Shown here: in pieces, positions 9,314 to 32,752 of the stretch
How the letters are laid out: each line of letters begins with the position of its first letter
Position numbering within the stretch: the first letter of the stretch is position 1
Virus record (IMG/VR): IMGVR_UViG_3300005613_000251
Span: 1-32,752 of that record
Strand: one strand, 5' to 3'
DNA from: a virus
Length of the DNA stretch: 32,752 nucleotides
The notes under the pieces: model-generated
Databases searched by the model: none
Told to the model about the DNA's origin: nothing
What the model saw: the letters and a program-made list of their open reading frames with translations, nothing else
Position numbers and translations under genes: made by a program

Positions 9314-9748
9314 ATGCCTATATTTTCAGAGTCGTCTCTAAAGAAGCTTATGTCCTGTGACAGAAGGCTACAAGTCATATTCTTGGAGGTTGTCAAGCAT
9401 GTGGATTGTACAGTTATAGAGGGGACCAGAACTGAGGCTAAACAACAGAAACTCTATAAGGATGGGCTGACTACTACACTTAATTCAAAGCATCTCAAAA
9501 GACCCTCACAAGCTGTTGATGTTGTTCCTTATCCCTTGAACTGGAAGCGTGTACGCAAAGATGATCCATATGAGCTTCGTAAGTATGTCTTCTTAGCTGG
9601 CTTTGTTTTTGCTGTAGCGGTCCAACATAATGTAATTATACGTTGGGGCGGTGCATGGAAGCAGCGTTATGTATTGAACGACCCTGGGGATTTTCAAGAC
9701 CTGGCGCATTACGAGTTAGCCAAATCGGGAGGATACTACCAAATATGA
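9314..9748 (+). CDS. Endolysin, M15 (VanY/T5-like) peptidase
   Basis: 144 residues. The motif SKHL...SQAVDVVPYP places His60 and Asp69, and DLAHYEL places His132, which together match the zinc ligands of M15 L-alanyl-D-glutamate peptidases such as T5 endolysin (137 residues). EGTRTEAKQQKLY is the substrate-groove segment also seen in the family. It would cut peptidoglycan cross-linking peptides at lysis. There is no signal peptide, so a holin or similar is needed; the only candidate here is the small protein at 18493. The gene starts behind a weak GAGG site and its stop overlaps the next start (ATGA). Lying between large terminase and gpW is unusual for an endolysin. A virion-associated wall-cutting role is the alternative. 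Confidence 0.82.
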   Translation: MPIFSESSLKKLMSCDRRLQVIFLEVVKHVDCTVIEGTRTEAKQQKLYKDGLTTTLNSKHLKRPSQAVDVVPYPLNWKRVRKDDPYELRKYVFLAGFVFAVAVQHNVIIRWGGAWKQRYVLNDPGDFQDLAHYELAKSGGYYQI

Positions 9749-10272
9749 GACAAATGGAATTCCGCGAACTAATCAAACAACTTGTATTACTCTTTAGACC
9801 CCATACATATGTTGAATTAGGTGTACGTTCCGGTTTTACATTTAACTATATTGCCCCTTTTGTAGAGCGAGCTGCAGCTTGTGATAATGGGAATATGAGC
9901 AAGATCACACCCCCATCCAGTGTAGTTGAGCACTATAACATGACTACCGATAAGATGGCTGAGGTGTGGAAAGGTGATATAGACTTACTGTTTATTGATG
10001 CCTGTCATAAGTATGAACAAGTAATGACTGACTTTGATAATTTCTCTAAATTTGTTAAGCCTGATACGGGACTAATACTACTCCATGACACTTACCCTGT
10101 GAATACTAAGCTTTGCCGACCAGGTTACTGTAATGACGCTTGGATGGCGGCAAGACAAATACGAAAATATTATAACAAGGAATTTGAGATTGTCACTCTT
10201 CCGGGACCCTATGCGGGTATGTCTATAATCCGGAAGGCAACAAAACAACTTGGATGGAGGGAGGATACATGA
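9745..10272 (+). CDS. Class I SAM-dependent methyltransferase
   Basis: The start at ATG 9745, overlapping the endolysin stop, is preferred over an upstream in-frame ATG at 9643 because GGGAGG lies 12 bases before it and the extra 34 residues lie inside the endolysin gene. It has 175 residues. YVELGVRSGFT (about residues 26-36) is the SAM-binding motif I. DLLFIDACHKYEQVMTDF and KPDTGLILLHDTYP match the Methyltransf_24 pattern. That group often acts on sugars or small molecules and is common in glycan gene clusters. The motif I variant is short, so SAM binding should not be taken as proven. Followed by a small overlapping ORF and a second methyltransferase, it is part of a modification cassette with a glycosyltransferase. 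Confidence 0.75.
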   Translation: MRQMEFRELIKQLVLLFRPHTYVELGVRSGFTFNYIAPFVERAAACDNGNMSKITPPSSVVEHYNMTTDKMAEVWKGDIDLLFIDACHKYEQVMTDFDNFSKFVKPDTGLILLHDTYPVNTKLCRPGYCNDAWMAARQIRKYYNKEFEIVTLPGPYAGMSIIRKATKQLGWREDT

Positions 10273-10424
10273 GTACATCCACGTCGGCATCAGTAGTACC
10301 CACTATGGTGGAAGGGGTGAAGAATGCGTTCCGGAAATTACCTCTACATGAGAGGCTGGCTGTAAACAAACAAAGACACCGAGAGTTTGTCCTGTCCGTT
10401 TTAAGGAGGAAACATCGTGCATAA
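10269..10424 (+). CDS. Small basic hypothetical protein, 51 aa
   Basis: ATG 10269 overlaps the previous stop (ATGA) and the stop overlaps the start region of the next gene (GTG 10417). The 51 residues start MSTSTSASVVP and end in a basic helix (ERLAVNKQRHREFVLSVLRRKHRA). Tight overlaps at both ends and the lack of another gene filling this stretch support it as real. There is no recognised domain. It could serve mainly to keep ribosomes moving to the downstream methyltransferase. Confidence 0.5.
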   Translation: MSTSTSASVVPTMVEGVKNAFRKLPLHERLAVNKQRHREFVLSVLRRKHRA

Positions 10425-10926
10425 AACCTCATATAATACTATGAAGCACTTCCTCTCAACTCTGGACTCGGAAGCCTCACTCAATATACTTGATGTGGGT
10501 TCTTTGCGTGTAAGCAAACAATCTGCATACGTGGACTTAATCCCAAAAGACTCTAAATGGTCTTATCAAGGTATCGACCTTTGTGAAGGCCCTAATGTCA
10601 ATGTCGTTGCTCAATACCCCACGTGCTACCCTTTCCCGGCAGATACCTTTGATGTTATCATCTGTGGCCAGACATTAGAGCATACGGCTAACCCCGTGGG
10701 CTTACTACTTGAATTACGGCGTATATTAAAACCAGGTGGCCGGATGTGTATTATAGCCCCAAGTGCAGGTTATGAACATCATAACCCCGATTATTGGAGG
10801 ATCATGCCGGATGGTATGGAATTCCTCATGGAAACTGCCGGACTAATAGATATAAAAGTAACCTTGAATCCTGCCGGTATCTGGCGAGATTGTGTGGGTA
10901 CTGCAAAAAAGAGGAGCATACAATGA
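10417..10926 (+). CDS. SAM-dependent methyltransferase, Methyltransf_11 type
   Basis: GTG start at 10417 behind AAGGAGG (10403-10409). 169 residues. ILDVGS (residues 24-29) is motif I, YQGIDL is the acidic loop binding the ribose, and FDVIICGQTLEH (motif IV region) is followed by ELRRILKPGGRMCIIAP. This set is characteristic of Methyltransf_11 enzymes, which methylate sugars, small molecules and other acceptors. It is short for the family (usually above 200 residues) but all core motifs are present. Its TGA overlaps the glycosyltransferase start (ATGA), so the two are almost certainly translated together. Acceptor unknown; the context points to glycan O-methylation. Confidence 0.82.
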   Translation: MHKTSYNTMKHFLSTLDSEASLNILDVGSLRVSKQSAYVDLIPKDSKWSYQGIDLCEGPNVNVVAQYPTCYPFPADTFDVIICGQTLEHTANPVGLLLELRRILKPGGRMCIIAPSAGYEHHNPDYWRIMPDGMEFLMETAGLIDIKVTLNPAGIWRDCVGTAKKRSIQ

Positions 10927-11765
10927 AAGTAGGGGTTATTATCCCTGTTGTACAAAGGGAGATGTATAATCAGTTAATGGCGTCCATCAGCACAAATACA
11001 CTAAGACCTAACCATATTGTGACTATTGATAACTCAGAGCATGGTATCAGCCAGGTATGTATTCCCGGTATACAACAGACTGTTATCAGAAATAAGCCTC
11101 AAAAGGATGCTGAGGGGAACTTCATGCCGGGTAATGGTACCAATGAAGCATGGAAACAGGGTATGGAGGTATTAGGGCAAACGGTAGATATTATTACTTT
11201 CCTGAATGACGATGTTATCTTAAACCCTCTTTTCTTTGAGAAGACATATCATACCATGGAGGACTGTCCCAAATGTGGTTTCCTGGTGCCTAGCCCTAAT
11301 GGGGATCTGGAGCTGGTAAAGAGATATAACCGGCGCAATGAGCCCGATAAAATACATAAAACAAAAGAACGACATGGATGGGCTATGACACTCAGACGGT
11401 CTCTATTGGATAAATTTCCCCCTATCCCAAATGGTATGACTATATGGTATGGGGATAACTGGTTTGCAGACCTGACGAATATGTTTGGTTATTATCGTCT
11501 TATCCGAAGGGATAATCCTGTATTTCATTATGGGGGTACATCCTCTAAACAGGAAATAGAGAGAGCTTCCCAGCCTGTAATGTCAAGGAAACGACGGAAT
11601 GAGCATGATGTGTTCTTACGTGCTATCCGGGAGTATAAACAGAATAAAGCTGAGGAGGAGCTGCAGAATGAACTCAAAAAGCTTGACGCCCGTCCCAAGA
11701 AACCCATTAGTGAGGGGACCGAACAATCGGATCGGAAGGACGAGAGTGCTGAAGACCAAAAATGA
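10923..11765 (+). CDS. GT2-like glycosyltransferase (GT-A fold)
   Basis: Start ATG 10923 (MKVGVIIPVVQRE) overlaps the methyltransferase stop. The frame is open further upstream to 10794, but that part lies inside the methyltransferase. 280 residues. VGVIIPVV is the first strand of a nucleotide-sugar binding GT-A domain and IDNSEHG its loop. ITFLNDDVIL contains the Asp-Asp metal/sugar-nucleotide motif. A later IWYGDNWFADL region supplies a plausible acceptor-side acidic residue. The last 60 residues are charged and probably disordered (EEELQNELKKLDARPKKP). It likely transfers a sugar from a nucleotide donor. Target inferred, not shown: the Ser/Thr tracts of virion proteins encoded downstream, or host surface sugars. 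Confidence 0.75.
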   Translation: MKVGVIIPVVQREMYNQLMASISTNTLRPNHIVTIDNSEHGISQVCIPGIQQTVIRNKPQKDAEGNFMPGNGTNEAWKQGMEVLGQTVDIITFLNDDVILNPLFFEKTYHTMEDCPKCGFLVPSPNGDLELVKRYNRRNEPDKIHKTKERHGWAMTLRRSLLDKFPPIPNGMTIWYGDNWFADLTNMFGYYRLIRRDNPVFHYGGTSSKQEIERASQPVMSRKRRNEHDVFLRAIREYKQNKAEEELQNELKKLDARPKKPISEGTEQSDRKDESAEDQK

Positions 11766-18762: not shown

Positions 18763-19740
18763 GTGTCAACAACTTCTTCTACTACCACTACAACCATATC
18801 TACCACCACATCTACGAGTACAACTACCACTACGTATTCTACCACTACCTCTACGTCCACCTCTACCTCTACCTCAACAAGCACATCTACCAGTACCACT
18901 ACAACTTCCTCTACATCCACATCCACCTCTACCTCTACCTCAACCTCTACCACAACTATGTCTTCGTCCTCTACATTATCCACCACATCATCAACATCCA
19001 GTACAGCTTCAACAACCAGTACACTTTCGACAACATCTACCACCGTTTCTACATCATCTACAACCTCAACATCTACATCTACAACCACCTCAACATCAAC
19101 CTCAACATCCACATCTACATCCTCCTCTACAGCCTCTACAACTTCCACACTGTCTACAGCTTCTACAACATCCAGTACCTCCACCACTACAACCACCTCA
19201 ACATCCACCTCAACCTCCACTTGTACATCCACTTGTACAACCACCTGTACAACCACTTCTACGTCCACCACCTCCACGTCTACCACAACATCTACTACAA
19301 GTTCTACTATGTCTTCAACCTCAACTCTTTCTACAACCTCAACATCCACCTCAACCTCCACTTCCACATCCACCTCTACCTCCACATCTACCACCACATC
19401 ATGTTCATCATCTTCTACAACAACCAGTACAAGCATCACTACAACAACCTCAACATCTACAACCACCTCAACATCCACCTCAACCTCTACTACGACATCT
19501 TGTTCAAGTTCATCATCTACCGCTTCAACCACATCCTGTACGTCTTCCACGGCATCAACCACCTCCACGTTATCCACAACGTCATCAACCTCTACCACTA
19601 CCTCAACCTCAACAACCACGTCTACAACCACCTCATGCTCTTCCACAACATCTACAACCTCATGTTCTTCTACAACCTCAACATCCACTTCATCTACAAC
19701 CTCCACAACCTACACGACCACAACCACATCTCCTCCAACA
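18763..19740 (+). repeat. Ser/Thr-coding low-complexity tract 1
   Basis: About 980 bases of TCN/ACN codons with very little G on the + strand. Motifs such as STASTTSTLSTTS and TTTSCSSSSS recur. Third codon positions are mixed (A, C, T and G all used), unlike slippage arrays. A long open frame appears on the complement and in a shifted frame only because of this composition. Confidence 0.95.
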
Positions 19741-20445
19741 TACGCTGAAAAAACAATACGCCAGCGTGTTATTGAGGCTATTCAGGCACGCTTAGGTGAT
19801 ATAACAACAGCCAATGGATATAACCATGATCTAGGGGCCCTTGGTTTAGGTAAGACCTTCTTTGGTCCTGAGGATTCTCCTATTGTAGCTTTACTCCCTG
19901 GTATTGAAGAGGCTGATCGTGTACAGAGTATGCGGTCTAATCGTATGACAATTACCATTAATGGGGTTATTACCTTTGATCCTGATACGGAAAACCCATC
20001 AGAGAAGATAGAGCCTCTCTTAGGGGACATAGTACATTGTATGCTTGGGCCCATTTTTGTTATTCATTTCACAAACGGCTCTACTGCAATAAGCCAGGGG
20101 GATCTCCTTACCGGTGTTACATCGAATGCTACTGCGCGTGTTATGCGTGTGCGTGTAACTTCAGGAGCTTGGGCTCTTGGGAATGCCGCAGGTACAATAA
20201 AAATAAGGGATATGCGGGGTACACTACGTCAGGAGGATCTGAATGTATCAGGCTCCTACGTTGCTAAATGCTCCGTCAGTCCTGTTATTCAAAACCGTTT
20301 CTCAGATTTAGTTGACAATGTGATTTACGCTTCCGGGGGTACCGAAACCTATCCGGAGGCTGGTGCTACTACTGTAGGGTGTACGACGGCCTTTACCATT
20401 GTCTACCCTACTTTAAACGATAACCCTTACTTAAACACATTATAA
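18763..20445 (+). CDS. Tail terminator-like protein with 323-residue Ser/Thr N-terminal tract
   Basis: GTG start at 18763 after GGGAGGT. Residues 1-322 are almost only Ser and Thr with rare Cys, Ala, Leu, Met. SPPTYAEKT starts a folded part at 323. No other start codon with a ribosome site lies between, so it is one protein. Residues 330-430 (RQRVIEAIQARLGDITTANGYNHDLG, then GPEDSPIVALLPGIEEAD) match tail terminator proteins, which cap the tail tube at the head end and are only about 130 residues in lambda (gpU). Residues 435-506 are a beta module shared with the decoration protein. Position after Z and before the tail tube fits gpU. The tract is likely extended and may be O-glycosylated; that is inference. 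Confidence 0.8.
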   Translation: MSTTSSTTTTTISTTTSTSTTTTTYSTTTSTSTSTSTSTSTSTSTTTTSSTSTSTSTSTSTSTTTMSSSSTLSTTSSTSSTASTTSTLSTTSTTVSTSSTTSTSTSTTTSTSTSTSTSTSSSTASTTSTLSTASTTSSTSTTTTTSTSTSTSTCTSTCTTTCTTTSTSTTSTSTTTSTTSSTMSSTSTLSTTSTSTSTSTSTSTSTSTSTTTSCSSSSTTTSTSITTTTSTSTTTSTSTSTSTTTSCSSSSSTASTTSCTSSTASTTSTLSTTSSTSTTTSTSTTTSTTTSCSSTTSTTSCSSTTSTSTSSTTSTTYTTTTTSPPTYAEKTIRQRVIEAIQARLGDITTANGYNHDLGALGLGKTFFGPEDSPIVALLPGIEEADRVQSMRSNRMTITINGVITFDPDTENPSEKIEPLLGDIVHCMLGPIFVIHFTNGSTAISQGDLLTGVTSNATARVMRVRVTSGAWALGNAAGTIKIRDMRGTLRQEDLNVSGSYVAKCSVSPVIQNRFSDLVDNVIYASGGTETYPEAGATTVGCTTAFTIVYPTLNDNPYLNTL

Positions 20446-20489
20446 TTATCCCTATTACCCCTAACCTATAAAGAAAGGAGGAAAAGCTT

Positions 20490-21503
20490 ATGCGTTCAAA
20501 TACTGCTGAAAATGGTATTCTTTATTATGAGGCTGCTCAGGCAACTACAGCTATGACGGCTCTCTCAGATGCAGGTGATCATATCCAGTACACCTCTGCG
20601 GTTACAATGTGGTCTGACAAGAGTGGTTATTCCCCTGTTGTAAGACCTGACGGTATGGTCTCAGGAGGTATTATCACTCCGGATTCTGCTCTTGTGAATG
20701 ACAGTATCGACATCACTGCCGGTACCTGTTATCTAATCGGTGTACTTACATCCCCTGTTGCTGCTGGTCTGGTTATCGCAAGAACAGCCGACGCGGTAAA
20801 CCCGTGTATCATCACTTCTGTATTGGTTACTGCTGGTGGTGCCTATGCTTCATTAGCCGGACTTAAAGGAGCTGCATTATCTGAAGTACGTGGTGCAGCC
20901 GGTGGTCCCCCGCTTGTTACTGTGGGTACTATCGAAGTTGGCCAGGTACGGTATACCTCAGACGTGGCAGCCCTTGTTACTTCTGATGAAATCTTCCAGA
21001 CTGTTGGTACTCACCAGGAAAGATGGGATTACCCCTTGTGGGAAGAGCACTTTGGCCGAAATCAGGATCTCTCACAGCCTGGTGGTAATATCGCCTTCTT
21101 GGCTGCATTACCCCTGTCTCACGTTGGCCCTGTAACCAAAGCCGTGTATGCGTCTTATGCAGAGCCTCAGTTTGCTGAGGTTGCCCCTGTAACTGATTTT
21201 GTCCCACCCGGTAACTCACACTCAGTTTCATCTAAGCAGGTTTATGGTGGTACGATCGGTTCTCGGTCATCTACTTTGAATCAGGGTTCTTTTACTGCGT
21301 ATCTGTCATCGGGTGTTAACGATGCCTTGCTGCGGTTAAAGGATTATATCCTATGGTTTAAGTATTATCCTGATAGATATAAGACCCCTTATATCATCAC
21401 TCAGGGAAAACTTGGTGTTGTTCGTGCATTCCCGGCGGATGACTCTATCACTGCGTCTTGTACAATCTCAGCCTCTGAGGCTGCGGTTGATGTTGATGCC
21501 TAA
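20490..21503 (+). CDS. Major tail tube protein (paralog 1)
   Basis: 337 residues, ATG behind AAAGGAGG. It lies where lambda V lies, between the terminator and the chaperone pair, and is beta-rich with Ala/Gly/Thr/Val codons typical of tube proteins. The central block (ARTADAVNPCIITSVLV, GLKGAALSEVRG.AGGPP, EEIFQ-type VGTHQERWDYP) is repeated in a second gene at 26271. This establishes a family inside the window even without a database match. By position it is the main tube subunit. It is longer than lambda gpV (246), so an extra surface domain is probable. Confidence 0.8.
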   Translation: MRSNTAENGILYYEAAQATTAMTALSDAGDHIQYTSAVTMWSDKSGYSPVVRPDGMVSGGIITPDSALVNDSIDITAGTCYLIGVLTSPVAAGLVIARTADAVNPCIITSVLVTAGGAYASLAGLKGAALSEVRGAAGGPPLVTVGTIEVGQVRYTSDVAALVTSDEIFQTVGTHQERWDYPLWEEHFGRNQDLSQPGGNIAFLAALPLSHVGPVTKAVYASYAEPQFAEVAPVTDFVPPGNSHSVSSKQVYGGTIGSRSSTLNQGSFTAYLSSGVNDALLRLKDYILWFKYYPDRYKTPYIITQGKLGVVRAFPADDSITASCTISASEAAVDVDA

Positions 21504-21512
21504 TATGTAACC

Positions 21513-21532
21513 GGTTTCTCGTAAGAGAAATC
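21513..21532 (+). other. RNA hairpin with GTAA tetraloop after the tail tube gene
   Basis: TTTCTC (21515-21520), loop GTAA, GAGAAA (21525-21530), extendable by a G-U and a G-C pair to 8 bp. The loop is a stable GNRA type. No T-run follows, so termination is unlikely. mRNA stability or processing between the highly expressed tube gene and the lowly needed chaperone gene is a reasonable guess. Confidence 0.5.
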
Positions 21533-21548
21533 TATGGGAGGAAAAGTT

Positions 21549-22016
21549 ATGTCATTTAATGTTAAGCAATTTATGCAAACTCAGTTCACTAAGAGGGAAG
21601 AGGAAGTCAAACTTGGCAAAGAGTTTGCTTCCTTTTTCCCTCCTGGGGAGCCTTGTGTATTGAAGGTTAGGGGCCTTACTGGTGTGGAGTTAGCTCAGGT
21701 ACATGCTGCTGTTGATAAGCACAAAAACCTGGCTGGCTTAGTTGAAGGGTTATTATCCGATGTTGATGCAGTAAAGGTTGAAGCATTAAAGAAGTCGGTA
21801 GGGATTGAGAAAGGAACACCGGCAGAGACAGCCAAGCGGCTTGAGTTATTTACCCGAGGGGTGGTTGAGCCTCCAGGGATGAATGTACAGGTTGCGGCTA
21901 AATTCTGTGAGATGTTTCCTATTGATTTTTATCATATAACGAATGTTATCAGTCGTCTTACCGGGGAAGGTTGTTTGCCGGGAAAACCGAAGCCCTCTGG
22001 CAACAACCCGAAGTAA
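21549..22016 (+). CDS. Tail assembly chaperone, gpG-like (short form)
   Basis: Start ATG 21549 (MSFNVKQF) is preferred to 21534 because GGGAGG lies 8-13 bases before it, inside the longer version. 155 residues (lambda gpG is 140). Helical, charged, with RGLTGVELAQVHAA and SRLTGEG, as in G-like chaperones that hold the tape measure protein during tube assembly. It ends with PKPSGNNPK after the slippery site; this C terminus is lost in the frameshifted form. Confidence 0.85.
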   Translation: MSFNVKQFMQTQFTKREEEVKLGKEFASFFPPGEPCVLKVRGLTGVELAQVHAAVDKHKNLAGLVEGLLSDVDAVKVEALKKSVGIEKGTPAETAKRLELFTRGVVEPPGMNVQVAAKFCEMFPIDFYHITNVISRLTGEGCLPGKPKPSGNNPK

Positions 22017-22186
22017 AAGCAGCATTATCATTATGTGATAAGTGGGGATGCCCACTATTTGTTGTACGTCCTGATTTGTTCCCAGAGGGCCGATTGACAT
22101 TCCTAGAGATAAACTTGTGGGCTAAGTACTACAATGATCAGAAGATGAGGCGTGAGTTAGAACAAGCACAAAGACCGCAAATGTAA
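21549..22186 (+). CDS. Tail assembly chaperone, GT-like fusion by -1 frameshift
   Basis: Ribosomes slipping back one base on GGGAAAA (21980-21986) would join the first 146 codons of the G-like frame to a second frame ending at 22186. This gives a 212-residue fusion. The second frame (GKTEALWQQPEVKAALSLCDKWGCPLFVV...EINLWAKYYND) has no good start of its own: the only ATG, at 22034 or 22140-like positions, has no ribosome site. In lambda the T part binds the tube protein while G binds the tape measure. The frame relation (-1), heptamer and order match lambda G/GT. Confidence 0.88.
21980..21986 (+). promoter_or_regulatory. Programmed -1 frameshift slippery heptamer
   Basis: In the zero frame the codons are CCG GGA AAA, so the site reads G GGA AAA, an exact X XXY YYZ heptamer, close to lambda's GGGAAAG. 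Both tRNAs can re-pair after slipping. It lies 27 bases before the zero-frame stop (22014-22016). Confidence 0.88.
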
Positions 22187-22205
22187 GTAAAAGAAGGGTT
22201 ACTTT

Positions 22206-25200
22206 ATGGCTAATATGGAAAGAGTTGTCAACATCATCTTTAAAGGCGAAGCTGCAGGCCTAAGAGGTGTCGTTACAGATATCAACCAAGGTTTGGAGTT
22301 ATTTGAACGTACCTTGGATGCCGTCCTTGAGCCTTTGGCTGCTGTAGCTGAGGGTATTATGGATGTTGATGAGGCTGTAGCTAAGTTTGCTATAACTCTT
22401 GGAACGAAGGCCCTGAACTCTTTCCGTAACTATGAAGATGCCTGTGTGGATTTAAAACGTCTTATGGGCGATCAGATTGATATGTGGGAGGAAGCAGAGG
22501 ACGCAGTCCGTAGGATGGCACGTACCTATGGGGAGACAATGACGGATGTCATGAAAACCGCTGCTGAGTTTAAGCGTGCCGGTTTTGATATGGAACGTAC
22601 CATGAAGATGACTGAGGGTGCGATTCGTATGCTTATCACTGGTAATACTGATCTTGGTACCGCTACCCGCGCCCTTATTCAGATATTTAAAGGTTATGAG
22701 TTTGAAGCTGAGAAGGTCACCGAGGTTGTTGACTCCCTTATCCACACCTCCCTAAACTACGCCACCAATGTTGAGAAGCTTGGTATAGGTGTGTCTGAGA
22801 TATCCCGTATTATGAAGGATATGGGGTACAGTTTCCAGGAAACTATAGGTCACGTTATCCCTATCATTGAGGTCTTCCAATCAGGGGAAGAGGCAGCCAC
22901 TTCTCTTAAAACTGCTTTTGCCAGGTTATCATCAGGTACTGCTCCAGTCTTACGGGCTTTTGATGAGTTAGGTATAAGCTTCCGTGATGATCTTGGTCAT
23001 CTTAAGTCAGGTAAGCGGCTTATGGAAGAGTTCACAGAATCCCTTAAAGATTTGGATAAGGTACAACAGCAATACTATATCAATATCGCTACAGGTATCC
23101 GCCAAGGGCAGAAACTTGTCTTAGTTATGGGCGATATGGAAAAAGTTACTGAGGTTACTGAGACTGCCCAAGAATCTGCTGGAGCCACTCAGGATCAGAT
23201 AAATCAGAAGATGGATACCGCTGCCCGTGTTGCTAAGCAGTATGCAGAGGCCCTTAATGAGTTAGAGAATACGATTGGGGCCAAGATAGACCCTGTTGTA
23301 CGAGAGTTTACAAAATCCTGGACGAATCTCATCCACGTCTTAGAAGGTGAAGTAAGGGTAGGTACTTTTGATGCTTTAAATGAGGCCCTAAATGATACCG
23401 TACAGCGGCTTGATAAGTTTATACAAGAAGTAGCTAATGCTCTCCCTCGTGCGCTCGCTGAGATAGATTGGTCTGAATTAACTCAAGCCTGGGATGATCT
23501 CATGAATACCTTAGAGGACTTCCTCGGTGCTATTGATGTCTCTAAACCCGAGGAGCTTAAAGATGTCCTCCAGTTAGTGGTAGATACTATGGCATCACTT
23601 ATCAAAGTCACAGAAGGCATGTTAGAGCCTTTAGGTGACTTAGGTAGTGATATCATCGATGTTATAGAGGCATTTAATAACCTGTCTGATGAAGAGAAAA
23701 AGAGTATCGGTAATCTGGTAATGCACGCCAAGATATTCCAGGATTTAGGCTTTAAAGTTCGTTGGGCTATGGATGTAATCTCTGAGATGAGCCAGGATAC
23801 ACATACATCGTATAAACGTATGTCAGACTCTGCGGGACAGTGGAAGGACGCGGTAATCAGCTTCTATAACACTGTCATGTTAAAAACAAAGGAGTATGGC
23901 TTAGATCGTATTGAGCGTATGGCTGATGAGCGAGGATGGACGGATGAACTAAAAGCTGAGTATGATGAGCAACTTAAAGCTGTACAGCACTATGCAGAAG
24001 CTTCAGGAAAATCCTATAATGACCTGACAGGTAAACTGGAGCGTAATTGGACTTACTGGGAAGAGGGTCTGGATGGGGTAAATAAGAAACTTGAATCTCA
24101 AGGTAAGAATGTAGAGATAAGTGAGAAGACCTGGAAGGCTTTTGGTGATGCTGCTAAGTATGTCGCTGGTGAGCTGGATGAGATCCCGGATGTAAAGACT
24201 GTGAAGCTTGAGGACTATGATACGATTCAAGAGCTAAGTAGGGAAGCACATGAAGTAGGTGATTACCTATTTGTAGAGATGCCTGATGAGAAGGGTATCC
24301 TTATTACTCCGGAGCTTAAAAAAGGAGAGCTGGAAATACTGGATGAGAAACTTAAAGAACTTCAGACAGATAAAGAGATAGAGGTTATCCTCATTGCTGA
24401 TGAAGCGGCATTAAAAGATGTAGAGGAAAAACTGAAGGAAGCCGCCCCACCTAAAACACAGGTTGAGATCATCCTTGAGGGTATGGATGTACTCAAAAAA
24501 CAACTCAAAGAAGCTGATACTGGTTTTAAAGATGTAACCGGTCCTGATGGTGTTCGTGACGTAAGACTTACCTGGCAAGAAACACAACGTAAGGATCTCA
24601 TGCAGCAACTTAGTGACTTGGAAACTCAGTTAGTGGGCATTGCTAAGGAAGGTGAAGCCCCTGATGCTTGGGAAGTCAACATTTTAGTAGGGAAGTATGA
24701 AGAGGCTAAGGAGACAGTCTCTAGTTTCTTAGAAACCCTTGAAGAGGATTTCCCCCCGGAAAAGAAGGTAGACTTGAAAGTTGAGGTGAATGAAGAAGCT
24801 CTAAGGTATGCTAAAAAGAGGCTGGAAGATGACATACCTGATGAGATAGTAGTAGATATACGCTTAGCTGGTACTGATCAGTTTGAAGCAGAAACAAAGC
24901 GATTTGAGGCTGAAACAAAGCGTGCATCAGAAGCTATCCAGGCACAAGTAGATATCACAGTCGAAAGTATTAAAGCGGAGGCGGAGATGTTCACCTCTAC
25001 TATGGAAAACCTCTCCTCTTCTATAGACTCAACTGCCAGTGCTGCTGCTGATATGTTTGAAAGTTTTGCAGAGTACCTTACTGAGATAGATAAGGGGGCG
25101 GAAGACGCTGATAAAGGCCTAAGCGAGATGGAGGAGCAGGCTGAAGAACTTGAGGCCGCCTTTGAGGATATGTTTGATGAGTGGGGCGACTTTGTAGACA

Positions 25201-26255
25201 GTATTGATGATGCTCTTGACGGTATCGATGAGATGAGGGAACGTCTGGAAGAAATCCCGGATGTCTTGGAAGATATAGCTGAGCGGTTTGCAGAGATCCC
25301 GGACGAAGTAGAGGATATAAACAAACGGTTAGAGGAATTACAAAAACGCTGGGATGATCTTCATGAAGATGAGAGGGACTATGCGAAGGACAAAGAAGAG
25401 CAATTGGAGAAAGAAAAGGAGATGCTGGATGACATCTTCGGGAAAATAACAGACATCAATGAGCTTAAAGAGAAAGAAAAAGAATTAACAGATGAGGAAA
25501 AAGAGATTCTACAGGAAATAAAGGAGCTGGAAAAAGAAAGAAAGCAATTATTAGAGGAACAAGAGGAGCTGGAAAAAGAATGGCAAAAAGCCCTAGAGGA
25601 GCAGCTTGAGATCCAGGAAGACATCCTTGAGAAATACGAAGAGATGAAACAATCCTTAGAAGATATTGGTCTTCTTACTGAAGACTGGAATGATAAGCTT
25701 ACTGTTGCTATGGGTACTCTGGACGATATGGCTGAGCGGCTTGATGAGCTACGGGAGCGTGGGCTTATTGTTGATGCGCAATACGAGGCAGCTAAAAGTA
25801 AACTAAATGAACTCGCTAACTTAATCAGAACCATGCCGGGAATAGACTTAGGTGATCCTTCAACTTGGACTGAGAGTATGAAAAAAGCTATTCAGGAGTT
25901 GGGGTTTGACTTTCAGGAGCTGGCTAAGCAATTTGGTAATACATACGCAGAAGGTGCAGGGTTTGCACAAAGCTACGCTGATGAACTACAGAATATGGTA
26001 CAACAGCAACTCGACATGCAGCGTCATCTTATTAATGCTCAAGTGGATTTAGCGGAAAAGCAAGGAAAACTTGTAGACGCCCGTATCGAGTCAATTAAAC
26101 GAGGGGACGCTGTGATATCTGTAGATGGTGCGGGACTGCAGCCAGAACTTGAAGCCTTTATGTGGAAAATACTAGAAACAATTCAAATACAAGCAAACGC
26201 TGAATACTCTGAATTCCTCTTAGGTTTATCGGGGATGACTACCGTCCAGAAGTAG
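22206..26255 (+). CDS. Tape measure protein
   Basis: 1349 residues, the longest gene, right after the GT frame as in lambda H. Residues 60-350 (AFAITLG-like start, MARTYGETMTDVMKTAAEFKRAGFD, ETIGHVIPIIEVFQSGEEAATSLKTAFARLSSG) match the TP901-type tape measure core domain. Residues 770-1170 are long Glu/Lys/Asp-rich coiled coils (ELEKERKQLLEEQEELEKEW). It sets tail length and is ejected ahead of DNA. By the rule of about 0.15 nm per residue the tail would be about 200 nm. Ribosome site is weak (AGAAGGG). Confidence 0.93.
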   Translation: MANMERVVNIIFKGEAAGLRGVVTDINQGLELFERTLDAVLEPLAAVAEGIMDVDEAVAKFAITLGTKALNSFRNYEDACVDLKRLMGDQIDMWEEAEDAVRRMARTYGETMTDVMKTAAEFKRAGFDMERTMKMTEGAIRMLITGNTDLGTATRALIQIFKGYEFEAEKVTEVVDSLIHTSLNYATNVEKLGIGVSEISRIMKDMGYSFQETIGHVIPIIEVFQSGEEAATSLKTAFARLSSGTAPVLRAFDELGISFRDDLGHLKSGKRLMEEFTESLKDLDKVQQQYYINIATGIRQGQKLVLVMGDMEKVTEVTETAQESAGATQDQINQKMDTAARVAKQYAEALNELENTIGAKIDPVVREFTKSWTNLIHVLEGEVRVGTFDALNEALNDTVQRLDKFIQEVANALPRALAEIDWSELTQAWDDLMNTLEDFLGAIDVSKPEELKDVLQLVVDTMASLIKVTEGMLEPLGDLGSDIIDVIEAFNNLSDEEKKSIGNLVMHAKIFQDLGFKVRWAMDVISEMSQDTHTSYKRMSDSAGQWKDAVISFYNTVMLKTKEYGLDRIERMADERGWTDELKAEYDEQLKAVQHYAEASGKSYNDLTGKLERNWTYWEEGLDGVNKKLESQGKNVEISEKTWKAFGDAAKYVAGELDEIPDVKTVKLEDYDTIQELSREAHEVGDYLFVEMPDEKGILITPELKKGELEILDEKLKELQTDKEIEVILIADEAALKDVEEKLKEAAPPKTQVEIILEGMDVLKKQLKEADTGFKDVTGPDGVRDVRLTWQETQRKDLMQQLSDLETQLVGIAKEGEAPDAWEVNILVGKYEEAKETVSSFLETLEEDFPPEKKVDLKVEVNEEALRYAKKRLEDDIPDEIVVDIRLAGTDQFEAETKRFEAETKRASEAIQAQVDITVESIKAEAEMFTSTMENLSSSIDSTASAAADMFESFAEYLTEIDKGAEDADKGLSEMEEQAEELEAAFEDMFDEWGDFVDSIDDALDGIDEMRERLEEIPDVLEDIAERFAEIPDEVEDINKRLEELQKRWDDLHEDERDYAKDKEEQLEKEKEMLDDIFGKITDINELKEKEKELTDEEKEILQEIKELEKERKQLLEEQEELEKEWQKALEEQLEIQEDILEKYEEMKQSLEDIGLLTEDWNDKLTVAMGTLDDMAERLDELRERGLIVDAQYEAAKSKLNELANLIRTMPGIDLGDPSTWTESMKKAIQELGFDFQELAKQFGNTYAEGAGFAQSYADELQNMVQQQLDMQRHLINAQVDLAEKQGKLVDARIESIKRGDAVISVDGAGLQPELEAFMWKILETIQIQANAEYSEFLLGLSGMTTVQK

Positions 26256-26270
26256 TAAAGGAGGTTATAT

Positions 26271-27278
26271 ATGTTCAATGCAATGGTAAGTCCTACAGAT
26301 AATGCCGCTTTATACTTAGAGTCAACACAAACACAGGCAGGACCGGTAGAGTTGACTGATTTAGGGGATCACCAAACTTTTACATCCGCCGCTGAATTGT
26401 GGTCTAAGAAGACGGGCTATGCCCCACAGATATACCCAAATGGTGTTTCTACAGGGTGTTATGTGTTTAACAGAACTACAAATGATAAAGTTTATGTGTC
26501 TGCCGGTACTGCTTATCAGGGAGGTTTATTAATTGATGTTGCGGCTTTGGAGGTAACGTGTACCAGAACCGCTGATGCGGTAAACCCATGTATCATCACT
26601 TCTGTTGTCATAGACGCGACTGGGGTAGTGAATGTCAACCAAGGGTTAAAGGGAGCAGCATTATCTACAACACGGGGTAATGCCGGTGGTCCCCCGATAC
26701 TAGCTGCCCAAGAAATAGAATTAGGCCAGGTTAAGTATACCTCCGAAACATCCGCACCTGTTGCTGCTGAGGAGATATTCCAATTAGTGGGTGTGCATCG
26801 GGAGAGGTTTGATTTTCCTGGGTGGGAAACATATACAGTTCCTTCTAGGGATGGCACTATTGCTGGAGGTAGTATGCAGTTTGTAGCTGCTTTGGGGGAT
26901 ACACACATAGCTTCCCCCAAACACATCTACGCACACTATGCAGAGCCTAGTTTTACGCAGTTAAACCCTATCTCCAATTTCTCGCCACCTACACGTACTC
27001 ATTCATTAACCAGTGTCCCAATTTACGGTGGTGCGCTCGGTATATGGTCTACCAGTCTAACGCAAGGATCATTTAGTATATACTTAATTAATGGTGTAAG
27101 TGATTGGGTATTTGGATTACAGGATACTATAGCTACACTTAGGTTTTGTCCTGATATGTATGGGGCGTGTATGACAGTACAAGGCATGTGCAGTGTCAAA
27201 GCAACCTTCCCCGCAGGGCAGCTTGCAGTAGCCACTGTTACCCTAACTTGTGTTGATGGTGCTATATTCCCGAGATAA
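26271..27278 (+). CDS. Second tail tube-like protein (paralog 2)
   Basis: 335 residues, ATG behind AAAGGAGG. It aligns along its length with the protein at 20490: TRTADAVNPCIITSVV, GLKGAALS, GNAGGPP, EIELGQVKYTSE, EEIFQLVG, RERFDFPGWE, YAEPSF, YGGALG, NQGSF-type TQGSFSIYL. Position after the tape measure is where distal tail proteins sit, so it may have become the tube's distal cap or the first ring above the tip. Alternatively it forms a mixed tube. Function inferred from paralogy. Confidence 0.75.
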   Translation: MFNAMVSPTDNAALYLESTQTQAGPVELTDLGDHQTFTSAAELWSKKTGYAPQIYPNGVSTGCYVFNRTTNDKVYVSAGTAYQGGLLIDVAALEVTCTRTADAVNPCIITSVVIDATGVVNVNQGLKGAALSTTRGNAGGPPILAAQEIELGQVKYTSETSAPVAAEEIFQLVGVHRERFDFPGWETYTVPSRDGTIAGGSMQFVAALGDTHIASPKHIYAHYAEPSFTQLNPISNFSPPTRTHSLTSVPIYGGALGIWSTSLTQGSFSIYLINGVSDWVFGLQDTIATLRFCPDMYGACMTVQGMCSVKATFPAGQLAVATVTLTCVDGAIFPR

Positions 27279-27290
27279 TAGGGAGGTTAT

Positions 27291-27728
27291 ATGGATATTA
27301 CTGCTGTACTCAATAGTGATGATGTTTATGGGGGTATACCCCAATTAAGTGTTAATAGAGTAGTTATAGCGGGCATAACGGTATACGCTGACCCTACCAA
27401 GTCAACTCTTATTGATATAACACGTGCCCTCAGTATAAGGCGTACACTGGATGGGGGTATGTACATACAGGATTTGGGAGGGGATGAGGTATCCCGTACA
27501 ATAAATGTAAGCACAGAGGTAAGCCTAAAGGTAGCCACTGCGTTACGCCATGCATTTTCTACTAATGGGACTCTTACAGTAACTACTTTAGAGGGGTCCT
27601 TTACTTGTACAGGGGCTACTTTTAGAGATTCTTTTGGGAGAATTGATATGACTTTTACTGTATTGAGCACTGCTGGGTACAGCCTATACAAACAGATTGG
27701 TGCTGCCTACGCTTCAGGAGCTGCCTAA
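27291..27728 (+). CDS. Tail-tip protein, 145 aa, unrecognised
   Basis: ATG 27291 after GGGAGGT; stop TAATG overlaps the following fibre gene. The 145 residues are mostly beta (INVSTEVSLKVATALRHAF, TLTVTTLEGSFTCTGATFRDSFGRIDMTFTVL split around residue 100). Between the second tube paralog and the adhesin it is probably part of the tail tip. Not matched to a lambda protein (M/L) by eye. Confidence 0.6.
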   Translation: MDITAVLNSDDVYGGIPQLSVNRVVIAGITVYADPTKSTLIDITRALSIRRTLDGGMYIQDLGGDEVSRTINVSTEVSLKVATALRHAFSTNGTLTVTTLEGSFTCTGATFRDSFGRIDMTFTVLSTAGYSLYKQIGAAYASGAA

Positions 27729-30700
27729 TGGGGGGCGGCGGCTGGGGTGCCGGTTGGGCTATTGGTGGACATGTACGACCTCCACTATCAGGCCCTTTAA
27801 GTTACTATGATTTTGCTATTCCTCCTACTACTACCACCACTACATCTACCACTACGTCTACATCTACATCTACATCAACCACTACTGCTATCCTATGTAC
27901 TTACAACGACTACTTTGTGGGGCTCACCGACTGGAAAAACACGTACCTGAAGTACGGTACGGAAACAGCGGTCATCTCAGGGAATAAAGTGCGGCTGACA
28001 GTACCGGATCAGGATAGTGCTATTAGAGAGACTTTTAAATACAAACTGGTTGATGGTGACTTTGACTTACGTATCGCAACTTCCAACTATACCCCTAATG
28101 ATATAAACACCGGCCTGATCTTCGAATTTCGTGTATCTGATACTGCAGCTAATAATTTTATAAGCATATGTGGGTATCAATATTATGATTGGGATTTACA
28201 GCGAGCTGTGTATATGATTTATTGTGAAGCTGCAACAGAAAATGGAGTGGCGTCTACGTTATCTACAGGGGTAGTGGATAGTCTTAACCAGAAACTGCGT
28301 CTTATGCGTGTAGGGGATTCCATTGGGGCTTACTACCTTGACAGTGGCACCTGGGTATACCTAACCCATGTAGCCTTTGCTGATGGGAATTCCTTAAACC
28401 AAATCCATGTGGGGGCTTTAGATAAATCAAACCACGGTGGCCGAGTAGACTTTGATGATCTGATCTTTGTAGAAGGGTGTCCTGTAGGGGAGCTTGCCTG
28501 GTGCAATTACGATGACGCCTTTACTGACTTAAACCTGTGGCGTGTACTTAACCAGGTAAACGGAGGGGAAACCTTTACAATAGATGACGGGGCTGTAGAT
28601 ATAGACCTGCCTAATTATTGTAATAGTGGTATAGATACCCAGTTTAGGTATGAGATTACTAATCCTGGCGATATGGTAGCCTTCACAATCAGTATTGAAG
28701 AGTATGATCCTGATCTTGTCTCCCAAGGATTTTGGGCTTATGTGGAATACCGATCTGATGATTCTAAGGATAGAGTACGGGTAGAGTTCTTTTACCAATC
28801 CGATTATGTATATCAAATAAAAACACTGTTTTACTTAAATAACGTACTTGTGGATACTCAGTGGAAAACACTGGCCCATGGTGAGTATGTGAATACTGAG
28901 CTTACCGGTCTTCAATTCTGGAAGGATACAACAGATCCTGGGGACCTTAAGATGTGGGTAAGGTATTTTTCTAATAATTCGGAGGATACATCTGATCATG
29001 TGGCGTCTACATATACGTATGGTGCCAGGGTAGAGAATTTTGCTATCCTGGAGATGGGTGCCAGGGACCAGATGACTAAAGGCGGGAATGTTAAGATAAG
29101 TGATCTTACCTTTAATTATGGCTGTCCTGGTGGAGTAGCAGTATGGACTTCAACGACAACTACATCAACATCAACGTCTACGCTATCAACTACATCTACA
29201 CTGTCTACCACATCCACATCTACCTCTACACACTCAACTACATCCACACTCTCAACTACATCTACAAGCTCCAGTACGAGTTCCACGACAAGCAGTATAT
29301 CAACTACGTCTTCAACGTCAACACTATCAACAAGCTCTACAACTACATCTTCATCTACAACAACCTCTACATCTACCCTGTCAACGACATCCACTTCCTC
29401 ATCTACAACATCTACATCAACCACAACCTCTACAATATCTACATCATCTACTTCAACATCTACTATGAGCACATCCTCTACAGCTTCCACTACATCTACA
29501 CTGTCCAGTACATCCTCTACAGCATCAACTACCTCTACATTATCTACTACATCCTCTACAGCTTCCACTACCTCTACACTAAGTACAACAAGCACAAACA
29601 CCCATACAACAAGCTCTTCGTCCACAGCGTCAACAACCTCGTGTACCTCTTCTACGGCTTCCACTACATCTACATTATCTACTACATCCTCTACATCTAC
29701 TACCAGTTCAACAAACACCACCACAAGTACCTCAACAACTACAACCACAAGTACATCAACTACATCTTCAACATCATCATCATCATCTACGCTGTCTACA
29801 ACGTCTACACTATCCACTACGTCTACGAGTACCTCCACAACTACTTCCACTTCTACATCCTCCTCAACAGCTTCCACCACTTCTACATCTTCATCAACAG
29901 CTTCCACTACAAGTACACTATCAACTATCTCTTCAACATCATCTTCATCCTCAACAGCTTCCACCACTTCTACATCTTCATCCACACTCTCGACAACTTC
30001 CACCGCCCCTCCATGTCAGTATAATGAGGACTTTGACGCGGGTATTGGTGATTGGCGTCCTTTATACTTTAGCACAACTAAAGACACTGCATCTATCTCC
30101 TCTGTTGCTAATAAATTGAGGTGTTCTTTTACCGGTAATACCGGTTGTGGTGTATTAGGTAAGTATACCATACTCGCCCCGGATGGGGATTTTGATATGC
30201 AGGTAGAGGTGCCTTATTGGGACCTTGTAAGCCAGGGTGGTTTCGGGCACATACATATGTATTTTATGTTAAGTGATCATCAAGTATTTGGACAAAACTA
30301 TGTAGCACTACAGGTTGAGTATAATTCATATAATAATAACGTATGGGCAGATTTCAACAGAAATGTAGATGGTAGTTATGCACAGGTAGTAACCAACCAT
30401 TCTATAGGTAATGATCCAACTGAATATAAATTGAGGATTAAGAGGGCTGGAACTGTATTTTATGTTTATGAAACTACCCCTATCAGTAGTGAATCCTGGG
30501 ATTTAATAGGTAGTTATGATCATGCTAACGCCGCTTCTTTAGACAGGATAACAGTAGGGGTTTTCAGTAATGGTTCCACCGCTTCCGGTTTAGCTGATTT
30601 TGATAATTTACTATTCACTTCTGGCTGCCCCGATGGTGCTGTATGGTCCACTACGACAACCACTACAACCTCAACATCTACCTCAACTACATCATCCACA

Positions 30701-30736
30701 CAGACTACAACTACAACCACAGAGCCTCCTCCATAA
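27728..30736 (+). CDS. Tail fibre/adhesin: three lectin-like domains on Ser/Thr linkers, 1002 aa
   Basis: Start by TAATG overlap. Layout: Gly-rich N terminus; short Thr/Ser linker (about residues 34-53); domain 1 (57-251); domain 2 (259-466); Ser/Thr tract (about 472-760); domain 3 (763-967); Thr tail ending EPPP. Each domain begins Cys-x-Tyr-Asn/Asp (CTYNDYF, CNYDDAF, CQYNEDF) and ends with GCP, so each probably closes with an N-to-C disulfide. They resemble the jelly-roll ConA/LamG-like folds of secreted carbohydrate-binding proteins (DFDLRIATS, GRVDFDDLIF). Likely binds sugars on the host or in its mucus. Disulfides imply folding outside a reducing cytoplasm or formation after release. Confidence 0.75.
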   Translation: MGGGGWGAGWAIGGHVRPPLSGPLSYYDFAIPPTTTTTTSTTTSTSTSTSTTTAILCTYNDYFVGLTDWKNTYLKYGTETAVISGNKVRLTVPDQDSAIRETFKYKLVDGDFDLRIATSNYTPNDINTGLIFEFRVSDTAANNFISICGYQYYDWDLQRAVYMIYCEAATENGVASTLSTGVVDSLNQKLRLMRVGDSIGAYYLDSGTWVYLTHVAFADGNSLNQIHVGALDKSNHGGRVDFDDLIFVEGCPVGELAWCNYDDAFTDLNLWRVLNQVNGGETFTIDDGAVDIDLPNYCNSGIDTQFRYEITNPGDMVAFTISIEEYDPDLVSQGFWAYVEYRSDDSKDRVRVEFFYQSDYVYQIKTLFYLNNVLVDTQWKTLAHGEYVNTELTGLQFWKDTTDPGDLKMWVRYFSNNSEDTSDHVASTYTYGARVENFAILEMGARDQMTKGGNVKISDLTFNYGCPGGVAVWTSTTTTSTSTSTLSTTSTLSTTSTSTSTHSTTSTLSTTSTSSSTSSTTSSISTTSSTSTLSTSSTTTSSSTTTSTSTLSTTSTSSSTTSTSTTTSTISTSSTSTSTMSTSSTASTTSTLSSTSSTASTTSTLSTTSSTASTTSTLSTTSTNTHTTSSSSTASTTSCTSSTASTTSTLSTTSSTSTTSSTNTTTSTSTTTTTSTSTTSSTSSSSSTLSTTSTLSTTSTSTSTTTSTSTSSSTASTTSTSSSTASTTSTLSTISSTSSSSSTASTTSTSSSTLSTTSTAPPCQYNEDFDAGIGDWRPLYFSTTKDTASISSVANKLRCSFTGNTGCGVLGKYTILAPDGDFDMQVEVPYWDLVSQGGFGHIHMYFMLSDHQVFGQNYVALQVEYNSYNNNVWADFNRNVDGSYAQVVTNHSIGNDPTEYKLRIKRAGTVFYVYETTPISSESWDLIGSYDHANAASLDRITVGVFSNGSTASGLADFDNLLFTSGCPDGAVWSTTTTTTTSTSTSTTSSTQTTTTTTEPPP
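29143..30003 (+). repeat. Ser/Thr-coding low-complexity tract 2
   Basis: About 860 bases encoding Ser/Thr with rare Ala, Leu, Cys, Asn, His, Met, Ile. A unit STASTTSTLSTTS is repeated three times in a row around 29475-29590 with closely similar DNA. Elsewhere the peptide motifs match tract 1 but codons differ. Shorter tracts of the same kind flank the first domain (about 27827-27887) and end the gene (30649-30720). Confidence 0.95.
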
Positions 30737-30770
30737 TAAAGAGGTCAGGAACGGGATGGTACGATAACGT

Positions 30771-31745
30771 ATGATACAAACAAGCGGTGTATACTTTAAA
30801 AATAGGTACCATAGTAATGTAGGCCCGATAACAACCTTTCACTATACAGCCAGAATGTCCCCCCAACTTAGGTGGAAGCTTTTTGGGTGGACTGATACTG
30901 ACTTTGCTACCGGAGCACAGTGGGCTACAGTACTTGTTTTCTATTATCTTGTCCCCTACATAACTGAGACACTGCAGGTGACCACCCCAGGGGAAAACCT
31001 CCTTGTCCCTGTGTGGGATGCTGACGCTTTAGATTGGACTTATGGCACAGGTGTAAGCTTAACTGCCTACAAATCAATAACAGGGGTACAAATATTTGGT
31101 AATGGCCAAGGACCAATAACAGGGGCAGGAATTACCCGGTACCCGAGAGCCGCTTGTGTGGTTACTGCCATCCGTACTGATATGAGCTATAACAGTGTAA
31201 CCACTACATGGCAAGCACAAGGAGGCGATGATTGGTATTACCCTGTACCTGAAGGGCCTACAGATCCCGGTAATACAGACCAACTTGGTGACTGGTTTGG
31301 CTTGATTGGTACATACCCTACGTGGCCTACCGGTGGAGCCGACATATCTGACGGATCTTATTTACGTAATGGACCAGCCAGTTGGGCTATTAGGGGAAGT
31401 GGCAGGTCTAATGTCTTCCCTGGTGGTTATTGTGATTTTGGTGCAGTGGCGGGTAGAATAGACTCTATAACGGAAACGGCTAATTCTTCCGATGCCTCGG
31501 TTGAGGTCTCTGGATATCATGATATTCGAAACTACAGTGAAGGTGTAGGTGAGCCCTCTACTTTTTACGGAATGTGTAAGGCTATTGGATATGAACAATA
31601 TAAAGGACCTGATGATGCAGAATGGGGTCCATGGGAGGTCTATTGCTTGTGGGAGGATGGACCGGAGGTAGGTACACCCGCTGTATTTGCAGCGCAAGGT
31701 GAAATGGGGGGTATGTTGAACCTCTATAGTGAAGGAGTAACTTAA
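30771..31745 (+). CDS. Tail-tip or fibre-associated protein, 324 aa, unrecognised
   Basis: ATG 30771, no strong ribosome site. 324 residues, Trp-, Gly- and Tyr-rich, beta-type. Segments such as WKLFGWTDTDF, WYYPVPEGPTDPGN and FYGMCKAIGYEQYKGPDD resemble exposed virion proteins, but no family is recognised. It lies between two Ser/Thr-stalk fibre genes, so a baseplate, fibre or receptor role is likely. No signal peptide or catalytic motif seen. Confidence 0.6.
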   Translation: MIQTSGVYFKNRYHSNVGPITTFHYTARMSPQLRWKLFGWTDTDFATGAQWATVLVFYYLVPYITETLQVTTPGENLLVPVWDADALDWTYGTGVSLTAYKSITGVQIFGNGQGPITGAGITRYPRAACVVTAIRTDMSYNSVTTTWQAQGGDDWYYPVPEGPTDPGNTDQLGDWFGLIGTYPTWPTGGADISDGSYLRNGPASWAIRGSGRSNVFPGGYCDFGAVAGRIDSITETANSSDASVEVSGYHDIRNYSEGVGEPSTFYGMCKAIGYEQYKGPDDAEWGPWEVYCLWEDGPEVGTPAVFAAQGEMGGMLNLYSEGVT

Positions 31746-31776
31746 ATATCCTTTGGGGGAAAGAAGGAGAGAAACT

Positions 31777-32118
31777 ATGGCTTTAAAGGAAATAGTAGGA
31801 GAACCAATGGCATTACAGCCTGCTGAGGAAGCTGCACTATCAAGTGCTATTCAAGAAGCAAAGGCCTGTAATGGCATCCGGAATAACCCGGAACTTATGA
31901 AGCTTTTGAGTGATGCAAACTTAAACTCTAAGGATATCCCCGGTGTAGGTAGAATCACAATCCAGACACGAGTTGGCCAAACTAAGGTTAATACTCAGAC
32001 AATCATTGAGTACCTTATTGAGCATGGCGTATCTCCGGAAATAGCCCATGCTGCAGTTGCTGCTGGCAAGTCTACCTTACCTCCAAGGGATATTCTATAC
32101 TTCGAAAACTTAGAATAA
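31777..32118 (+). CDS. Hypothetical protein, 113 aa
   Basis: Start ATG 31777 (MALKEIVGEPM) is chosen because AAGGAGAG precedes it; a TTG at 31753 would add eight residues coded by the ribosome site itself. The product is helical with acidic and Ala-rich segments (AEEAALSSAIQEAKAC, YLIEHGVSPEIAHAAVAAGKS). Lies between two fibre-type genes; could be a fibre assembly chaperone, but no motif proves this. Confidence 0.6.
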   Translation: MALKEIVGEPMALQPAEEAALSSAIQEAKACNGIRNNPELMKLLSDANLNSKDIPGVGRITIQTRVGQTKVNTQTIIEYLIEHGVSPEIAHAAVAAGKSTLPPRDILYFENLE

Positions 32119-32130
32119 GGGGGTGTTTAG

Positions 32131-32752
32131 ATGCCTAAATTTAGTCAATACCCGTCTGCTACGCCCCACTTTACTGATACGATGCTTATTCATCAGGCAG
32201 GTGAGACAAAGCAGATAACATTAGAACAGTTGTTTGAGATGATAGGGGTTACCACGACAACCACAACGACAACTACAACAACATCCACAACCTCATCGAC
32301 TACAACAACATCTACAAGTACAAGTACAAGTACCTGCAGTAGTACAACCTCTTCTTGTTCATCTTCATCCAGTACGGCTTCTACAATAAGTACAGCCTCT
32401 ACTACTACTTCTACCTCAACCACTACAAGTACTACGACGAGTACGAGTACCACCACCTCCACGACCTCAAGTACATCTACTTCTACATCAACTACCAGCA
32501 GTACAAGTACATCTACAACCACAACATCCACTACCACTTCTACGTCAACTACTACAAGTACAAGTACCTCTACTTCTACAACTTCCACAACCACTTCCAC
32601 GTCAACAACGACGAGCACTACAACATCAACATCCACTACAACCTCCACGACAACGAGTTGTAGTTCATCTTCCTCTACAGCATCCACTACAAGTACATTG
32701 TCAACCACATCGTCAACCTCCACGACAACGAGTTGTAGTTCATCTTCCTCTA
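32131..32752 (+). CDS. Fibre protein with Ser/Thr tract (partial, runs off the window)
   Basis: ATG 32131, 13 bases after GGGGG. The first 39 residues (PKFSQYPSATPHFTDTMLIHQAGETKQITLEQLFEMIG in two parts) match the start of many phage fibre proteins, which read like 'x-ix-lp-a-gtdxlpvxqxgxtkkvtlxql'. From residue 40 the frame is only Thr, Ser and some Cys/Ala/Leu up to the edge, so at least 168 residues of tract. The C terminus and any binding domain lie beyond the window. Confidence 0.75.
   Translation, partial: MPKFSQYPSATPHFTDTMLIHQAGETKQITLEQLFEMIGVTTTTTTTTTTTSTTSSTTTTSTSTSTSTCSSTTSSCSSSSSTASTISTASTTTSTSTTTSTTTSTSTTTSTTSSTSTSTSTTSSTSTSTTTTSTTTSTSTTTSTSTSTSTTSTTTSTSTTTSTTTSTSTTTSTTTSCSSSSSTASTTSTLSTTSSTSTTTSCSSSSS
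32250..32752 (+). repeat. Ser/Thr-coding low-complexity tract 3, with a 75-bp tandem repeat
   Basis: Same kind of tract as in the two upstream genes. The 37 bases at 32641-32677 recur exactly at 32716-32752, a period of 75 bases (25 codons). More copies may follow outside the window. AGT/AGC serines are more frequent here than in tract 1. Confidence 0.9.

Follow-up and report, generated by a model that had tools for sequence, protein, structure and literature searches.

The stretch analysed here (the window) is a 32.75-kb virus record, comprising the 32,752 nucleotides of IMG/VR record IMGVR_UViG_3300005613_000251, and it belongs to a siphovirus with a lambda-type head module in which three virion genes carry long tracts of serine and threonine. 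The first, a tail-terminator-like gene recognised from its open reading frame and translation (18763-20445, on the + strand, as are the two further genes, the tracts and the shared peptides described with them), begins with an N-terminal Ser/Thr tract of 322 residues (18766-19731; 170 Thr, 127 Ser, 8 Cys, 5 Ala and 5 Leu), and its C-terminal domain (19735-20442) matches PHROG 5078 (PHROGs E 4e-6). The second, a fibre gene (27728-30736), encodes beta-sandwich (lectin/concanavalin-like) modules with Ser/Thr tracts between them, including a tract of 287 residues (29147-30007). The third (32131-32752) is interrupted by the contig end, and its tract (32251-32751; 167 residues) is incomplete. Ser and Thr make up approximately 89-95% of the three tracts. 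Within and between them, identical peptides recur with largely unrelated codons, an observation that is real, well beyond chance and general among phages bearing such tracts.

The same 31 residues, SSSSTASTTSCTSSTASTTSTLSTTSSTSTT, are encoded at 19507-19599 in the tail-terminator-like gene and at 29612-29704 in the fibre gene, with only 6 of the 31 codons identical and 25 nucleotide differences, every one at codon position 3. Another 21 residues, SSTASTTSTLSTTSSTSTTTS, are common to 19543-19605 in the tail-terminator-like gene and 32671-32733 in the third tract-bearing gene, where the codons agree at 3 of 21 positions and two Ser sites differ as TCN against AGY. The third gene also holds a DNA repeat spaced by 75 nucleotides, of which 39 are identical at 32639 and 32714. 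These matches were first described in an earlier note made from the sequence alone, and its coordinates and codon counts proved right, and the 75-nucleotide repeat real. Its statement that no difference was nonsynonymous holds for the 31-mer but partly follows from the choice of that pair, which was chosen for being the longest exact match between peptides; zero nonsynonymous differences are therefore partly built in, and the sequence directly outside it is no more alike than random (41% identity), with 13/30 residues matching on the left and 18/40 on the right. As a separate observation, the contig ends within the third tract, in the second copy of the 39-nucleotide repeat (32714-32752), and this end at 32752 probably reflects the assembly breaking off at the repeat. 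A diversity-generating retroelement target was also considered and set aside, as the differences lie at third positions and involve all four bases with the first-position A of ACN unchanged, a reverse transcriptase not having been searched for.

One alternative is that the tracts are slippage-made or drifting filler, that is, neutral low-complexity linkers whose matches are due to a restricted alphabet. Markov peptide models of order 0-5, trained either on the window's tracts or on those of other phages, gave a longest shared peptide of no more than 28 residues; 31 was reached by an order-6 model alone, one over-fitted to the tracts of the window itself, and in 12% of its runs. Simulation of the same codon divergence with Ser and Thr freely interchangeable produced a mean of 9.3 residue differences in 31, and zero differences in 0 of 300 runs, rejecting the free model. 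With Ser-Thr swaps accepted at 0.1 of the silent rate, 2.3 differences were obtained and the probability of none was 0.13. Windows anchored on Ala or Leu (9-residue words) gave ratios of nonsynonymous to silent change (pN/pS) of 0.2-0.5, compared with 0.5-0.6 in random tract windows.

Comparable tracts were collected by searching 2.9 million viral contigs with a back-translated TASTTSTLSTT pattern, which matched 23 stretches and revealed true in-frame tracts in at least seven phages; a looser pattern widened the collection to about 30 metagenomic tract phages. In 84,980 prokaryote species the TASTTSTLSTT pattern gave 38 DNA matches and one in-frame peptide, located in an unrelated 131-residue open reading frame; none of the matches fell in a Ser/Thr tract. 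The phages have a common grammar, S-T-X-S-T-T, in which X is Ala, Leu, Phe, Tyr or others, with Ser-Thr before X and Ser-Thr-Thr-Ser after it. Around Ala, Leu and Phe/Tyr (18-24 phages), Ser occupies 79-90% of positions at -2 and Thr 94-95% at -1, followed by Ser at 80-95% of +1 positions and Thr at 86-93% of +2 positions. Ala and Leu belonged to the search patterns and Phe/Tyr did not, yet the profile is the same. Three of the tract phages (G055, G001 and G002) are related to the window phage (TerL, the large terminase subunit, at 52-56%), but no homologue of its TerL was found in the other 19 tract contigs searched, and the grammar therefore reaches past one lineage. One relative (L243, contig 3300005613_000085; TerL 56%) has tracts of Ser-Thr-X triplets, such as STCSTCSTLSTASTLSTT, with Cys, Leu, Ala, Gln or Glu frequently at X and Cys unusually common.

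This regularity could also reflect a structural constraint and not a glycan code, with S-T-X triplets forming an extended helix, beta structure or trimeric rod that places X on one face. Such a constraint would suit the fixed position of X in the triplet, the periodicity of Ser/Thr order over all phages at lags 3, 4, 6, 7 and 10, and the peaks at 6, 7 and 10 in the spacing between non-Ser/Thr residues. However, some phages (the window and the phage L012, contig 3300014914_000015) mix period-2 and period-3 stretches, and there is no structural template; we consider a structural explanation unlikely.

The L012 tracts also provided a view of repeats that had not been chosen for identity. In this phage a 17-residue peptide, FSTTSTSSSSTSTSTST, forms a unit found 8 times, frequently in tandem, and adjoining units of identical sequence have from 1 to 9 of 17 codons in common; shifting a 55-residue stretch by one unit gives an identical peptide with 20% codon identity. 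Equal-length Phe-to-Phe units, taken irrespective of identity, showed 87-93% residue identity and 35-47% codon identity. These units, the simulation above and the anchored pN/pS values are three checks that avoid or bound the bias arising from choice of match. Selection on the peptide, one of two readings suggested in the earlier note, was supported by the L012 units, together with the rejection of the free Ser/Thr model and the local grammar kept in unrelated phages.

Polyubiquitin-type birth-and-death evolution is a known source of identical peptide repeats whose silent sites are saturated under purifying selection, and the L012 units behave similarly in keeping their peptides alike with silent sites near saturation. 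Unlike polyubiquitin, the phage tracts are of low complexity and few residue types, with repeats of about 6-17 residues and words common to unrelated phages. Persi et al. (PMC5120217) described protein repeats under strongly relaxed purifying selection, formed by tandem duplication and then diverging rapidly from one another. Phage repeats likewise arise by tandem duplication, but their constrained words stay identical as silent sites saturate. In our literature search, no paper was found that describes codons behaving in this way in Ser/Thr-rich tracts of phages.

The idea that the DNA of the shared peptides differs as far as it can, as the earlier note had put it, was not borne out. Codon identity in the window's between-tract peptide matches of at least 8 residues was 0.272, and codon shuffles gave 0.275 +/- 0.009; codon choice is therefore independent rather than maximally different. 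The related proposal, that recombination between tracts would delete essential genes and so favour scrambled codons, draws on a shortage of exact between-tract words in the window (70 12-mers vs about 130 in codon shuffles; 3 15-mers vs about 20) and on the avoidance of the same codon in adjoining positions. The shuffle null, however, ignores internal duplications, counting duplicated words as independent, and the window's deficit is therefore less significant than it appears. Within the window's own tracts DNA repeats are in excess, and codon identity at lags 2-8 is as expected. Six other multi-tract phages exceed their shuffles in between-tract shared DNA words and three are at expectation, which leaves the window alone with a clear deficit. 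Selection against recombining repeats thus finds no general support and is regarded as quite unlikely.

Avoidance of direct codon repetition was, by comparison with these between-tract effects, consistent: identical neighbouring codons in tracts occurred at 0.74 of expectation and fell below it in 21 of 22 phages, whereas the window's other genes showed no significant homocodon avoidance. This is the reverse of slippage-made low-complexity regions with their excess of homocodon runs, and it is consistent with selection against triplet runs that are prone to slippage, or with an effect of codon context. It was also possible that the cause lies in translation, Ser and Thr being spread over all codons to spare any single tRNA from exhaustion. 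Every Ser and Thr codon is indeed in use and direct repetition is avoided, but no tRNA genes were found in the window, the effect is confined to lag 1 where tRNA recharging would be expected to span several codons, and the identical peptides are left unexplained; we think a translational origin very unlikely.

Growth of the tracts was observed directly. Over the 8.5 kb aligned between the closely matching phages L158 and L182, the sole difference is a 39-nucleotide in-frame tandem duplication in a tract. Between L166 and L220, ten positions differ, all within one tract (7 synonymous, 2 Thr-to-Ser and 1 Ile-to-Thr), and this clustering suggests recombination with a diverged copy. At 12651-13875 of L166, a 16-nucleotide insertion relative to L220 splits one tract gene into two frames, as either a real frameshift or an assembly error. 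Shared peptides of at least 20 residues have codon identities graded from about 0.1 to above 0.9; together with the observed duplication, this supports duplication followed by silent drift under peptide selection, in which copies of all ages are expected.

Over longer distances the tracts are less stable. The N-terminal 40 residues of the third tract-bearing gene have homologues in L003, L006 and L158, with a tract downstream of them in each. When the window is compared with L003, L006 and L182, long-range tract order is not conserved (z 0.4-2.3), though it is partly conserved among those three (z 2.1-5.3), and the tail-terminator orthologue of L182 is without the N-terminal tract. What is conserved is words and not whole strings, with different phages bearing tracts on different virion genes. 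The tight keeping of Ser versus Thr order claimed earlier therefore stands for short words but not for the long-range string, which is not conserved when orthologous tracts are compared with those of relatives whose TerL is 52% identical. In the same way, the rejection of slippage-made filler gains from the depletion of homocodon runs but has to allow that in-frame duplication of DNA builds tracts. In favour of filler are this enlargement by duplication and the loss of long-range order; with the Markov nulls falling short of 31 residues, the free Ser/Thr model rejected, a position-specific grammar in unrelated phages and homocodon runs depleted, we hold it to be highly improbable.

The remainder of the window is that of a tailed phage, with genes for the terminase TerL (gpA), portal, ClpP-like protease, decoration protein, major capsid protein, neck, tail terminator and tape measure. 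The closest isolated phages by head proteins are the Wolbachia phages WO (capsid 52%, TerL 43%), and a scan of viral contigs with the major capsid protein turned up no relative. Among isolated phages, the glycosyltransferase (GT), the lectin-like modules and the tail terminator each had weak matches or none. The fibre modules are homologous to modules of L003, L006, L008 and L182, and the fold predicted for one of them (27881-28480; pLDDT 74.5) matches beta-sandwiches of the lectin-like and glycan-binding kinds. The tape-measure gene lies between the genes of two paralogous tail proteins (20490-21503 and 26271-27278), both PHROG 30644 (unknown function). The closest isolated or named relatives of the first of them are MW202621 and Marinobacter phage PS3, and no tract was seen in these two phages (MW202621 over the first 50 of 55.7 kb). 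An Ala-rich repeat protein of repeated ADAVGATAFAADAAGATAFAA-type units is encoded at 234-788, with no Pfam family match.

Four genes of the window, all on the + strand, encode candidate modification enzymes. A GT of GT-A fold with an NDD motif (10923-11765) matches PF00535 at E 4e-4, below the curated cut-off, and is recognised by its AlphaFold model and PDB matches. It is accompanied by two S-adenosylmethionine (SAM) methyltransferases, one of Methyltransf_24 type (9733-10272; two tract phages have homologues of it, at 47% and 44%) and one of Methyltransf_11 type (10417-10926; a homologue at 50% in a tract phage), and by a sulfotransferase (Sulfotransfer_3; 3398-4213; PF13469 E 4.5e-8, above the curated cut-off). 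Across phages, GT2 genes are associated with tracts, being present in 15 of 20 tract phages of at least 30 kb, some with Thr-only tracts, and in 2 of 28 controls (p = 1.4e-6), the controls being TerL relatives and contigs from chance pattern matches, unmatched for habitat and host and not fully controlled for lineage. Across the 79 contigs searched, homologues of the window's GT turned up in 4 other tract phages but in none of the controls. Its Methyltransf_24 enzyme likewise has homologues in four tract phages and none among the controls; Methyltransf_11 has a strong homologue in one tract phage and weak ones in two others and one control.

Phage-encoded virion glycosylation, in mycobacteriophages, is among the matters touched on in PMC11256854. 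As in such systems, the window phage encodes a GT, and enzyme genes associate with tract proteins across phages. In mycobacteriophages, structural proteins have been proposed as targets of glycosyltransferases from the same phage genome; to our knowledge, no long Ser/Thr tracts built on a recurring word grammar are known there. Mucin-like and antifreeze-glycoprotein-like domains are long Ser/Thr-rich repeats of short units that act as acceptors for dense O-glycans, and the phage tracts resemble them in being long and mostly Ser/Thr. They differ in their S-T-X-S-T-T grammar, in place of the proline-rich repeats of mucin or the Thr-Ala-Ala of antifreeze glycoprotein, and in lying on virion proteins with a putative modification; proline-rich tandem repeats are not a feature of the tracts, Pro being absent from those of the window and amounting to 0.8% of tract residues across all phages.

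Taken together, we favour a joint account and hold it, with moderate confidence, to be probable. The tracts would be virion surface spacers assembled from a small vocabulary of S-T-X-S-T-T words and growing by in-frame DNA duplication, after which purifying selection would preserve the peptide as its silent sites drift until saturated. Pairs of identical peptides whose codons are unrelated would then be old copies of constrained words, with no need for a special codon-scrambling mechanism. An added constraint on codons, the avoidance of direct repetition, would arise most simply because pure triplet runs slip in replication. The likely cause of the peptide constraint would be that the tracts accept O-linked sugars from the phage-encoded GT, methyltransferases and sulfotransferase, and the resulting mucin-like stalks would be stiff and hydrated and would stand on the tail and between the lectin-like modules of the fibre. 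Of this account, the analysis demonstrates the constraint on the peptide, the saturation of silent sites, one in-frame duplication, the common grammar, the avoidance of homocodons and the association with GT2 genes; glycosylation, the spacer role and the reason why homocodons are avoided are inferred.

Several points weigh against this account. The difference in pN/pS from random windows makes the peptide constraint clear but moderate. Glycosylation itself is deduced here from genes and sequence and not from direct evidence, and that the tracts are glycosylated spacers seems to us about evenly balanced. No sulfotransferase was found in 10 other tract contigs searched, and in some tract phages, G004, G009 and G010 among them, no GT was detected, although their contigs may be incomplete. 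The GT association may reflect shared habitat or host, and the GT2 enzymes may act on host surface sugars instead.

A stronger version, to which we give some credence while considering it doubtful, is that S-T-X-S-T-T is a true code common to unrelated phages and read by phage glycosyltransferases, with Ser versus Thr and the position of X specifying the modification of a sugar-coated virion rod; if true, this would be a new class of viral scaffold. Ser/Thr low-complexity stretches are usually masked as filler, and here they show residue-level constraint and a grammar across unrelated phages. The tracts are natural cases of identical tandem peptides with near-independent codons, and they connect uncultured phages with virion glycosylation in a way that can be tested.

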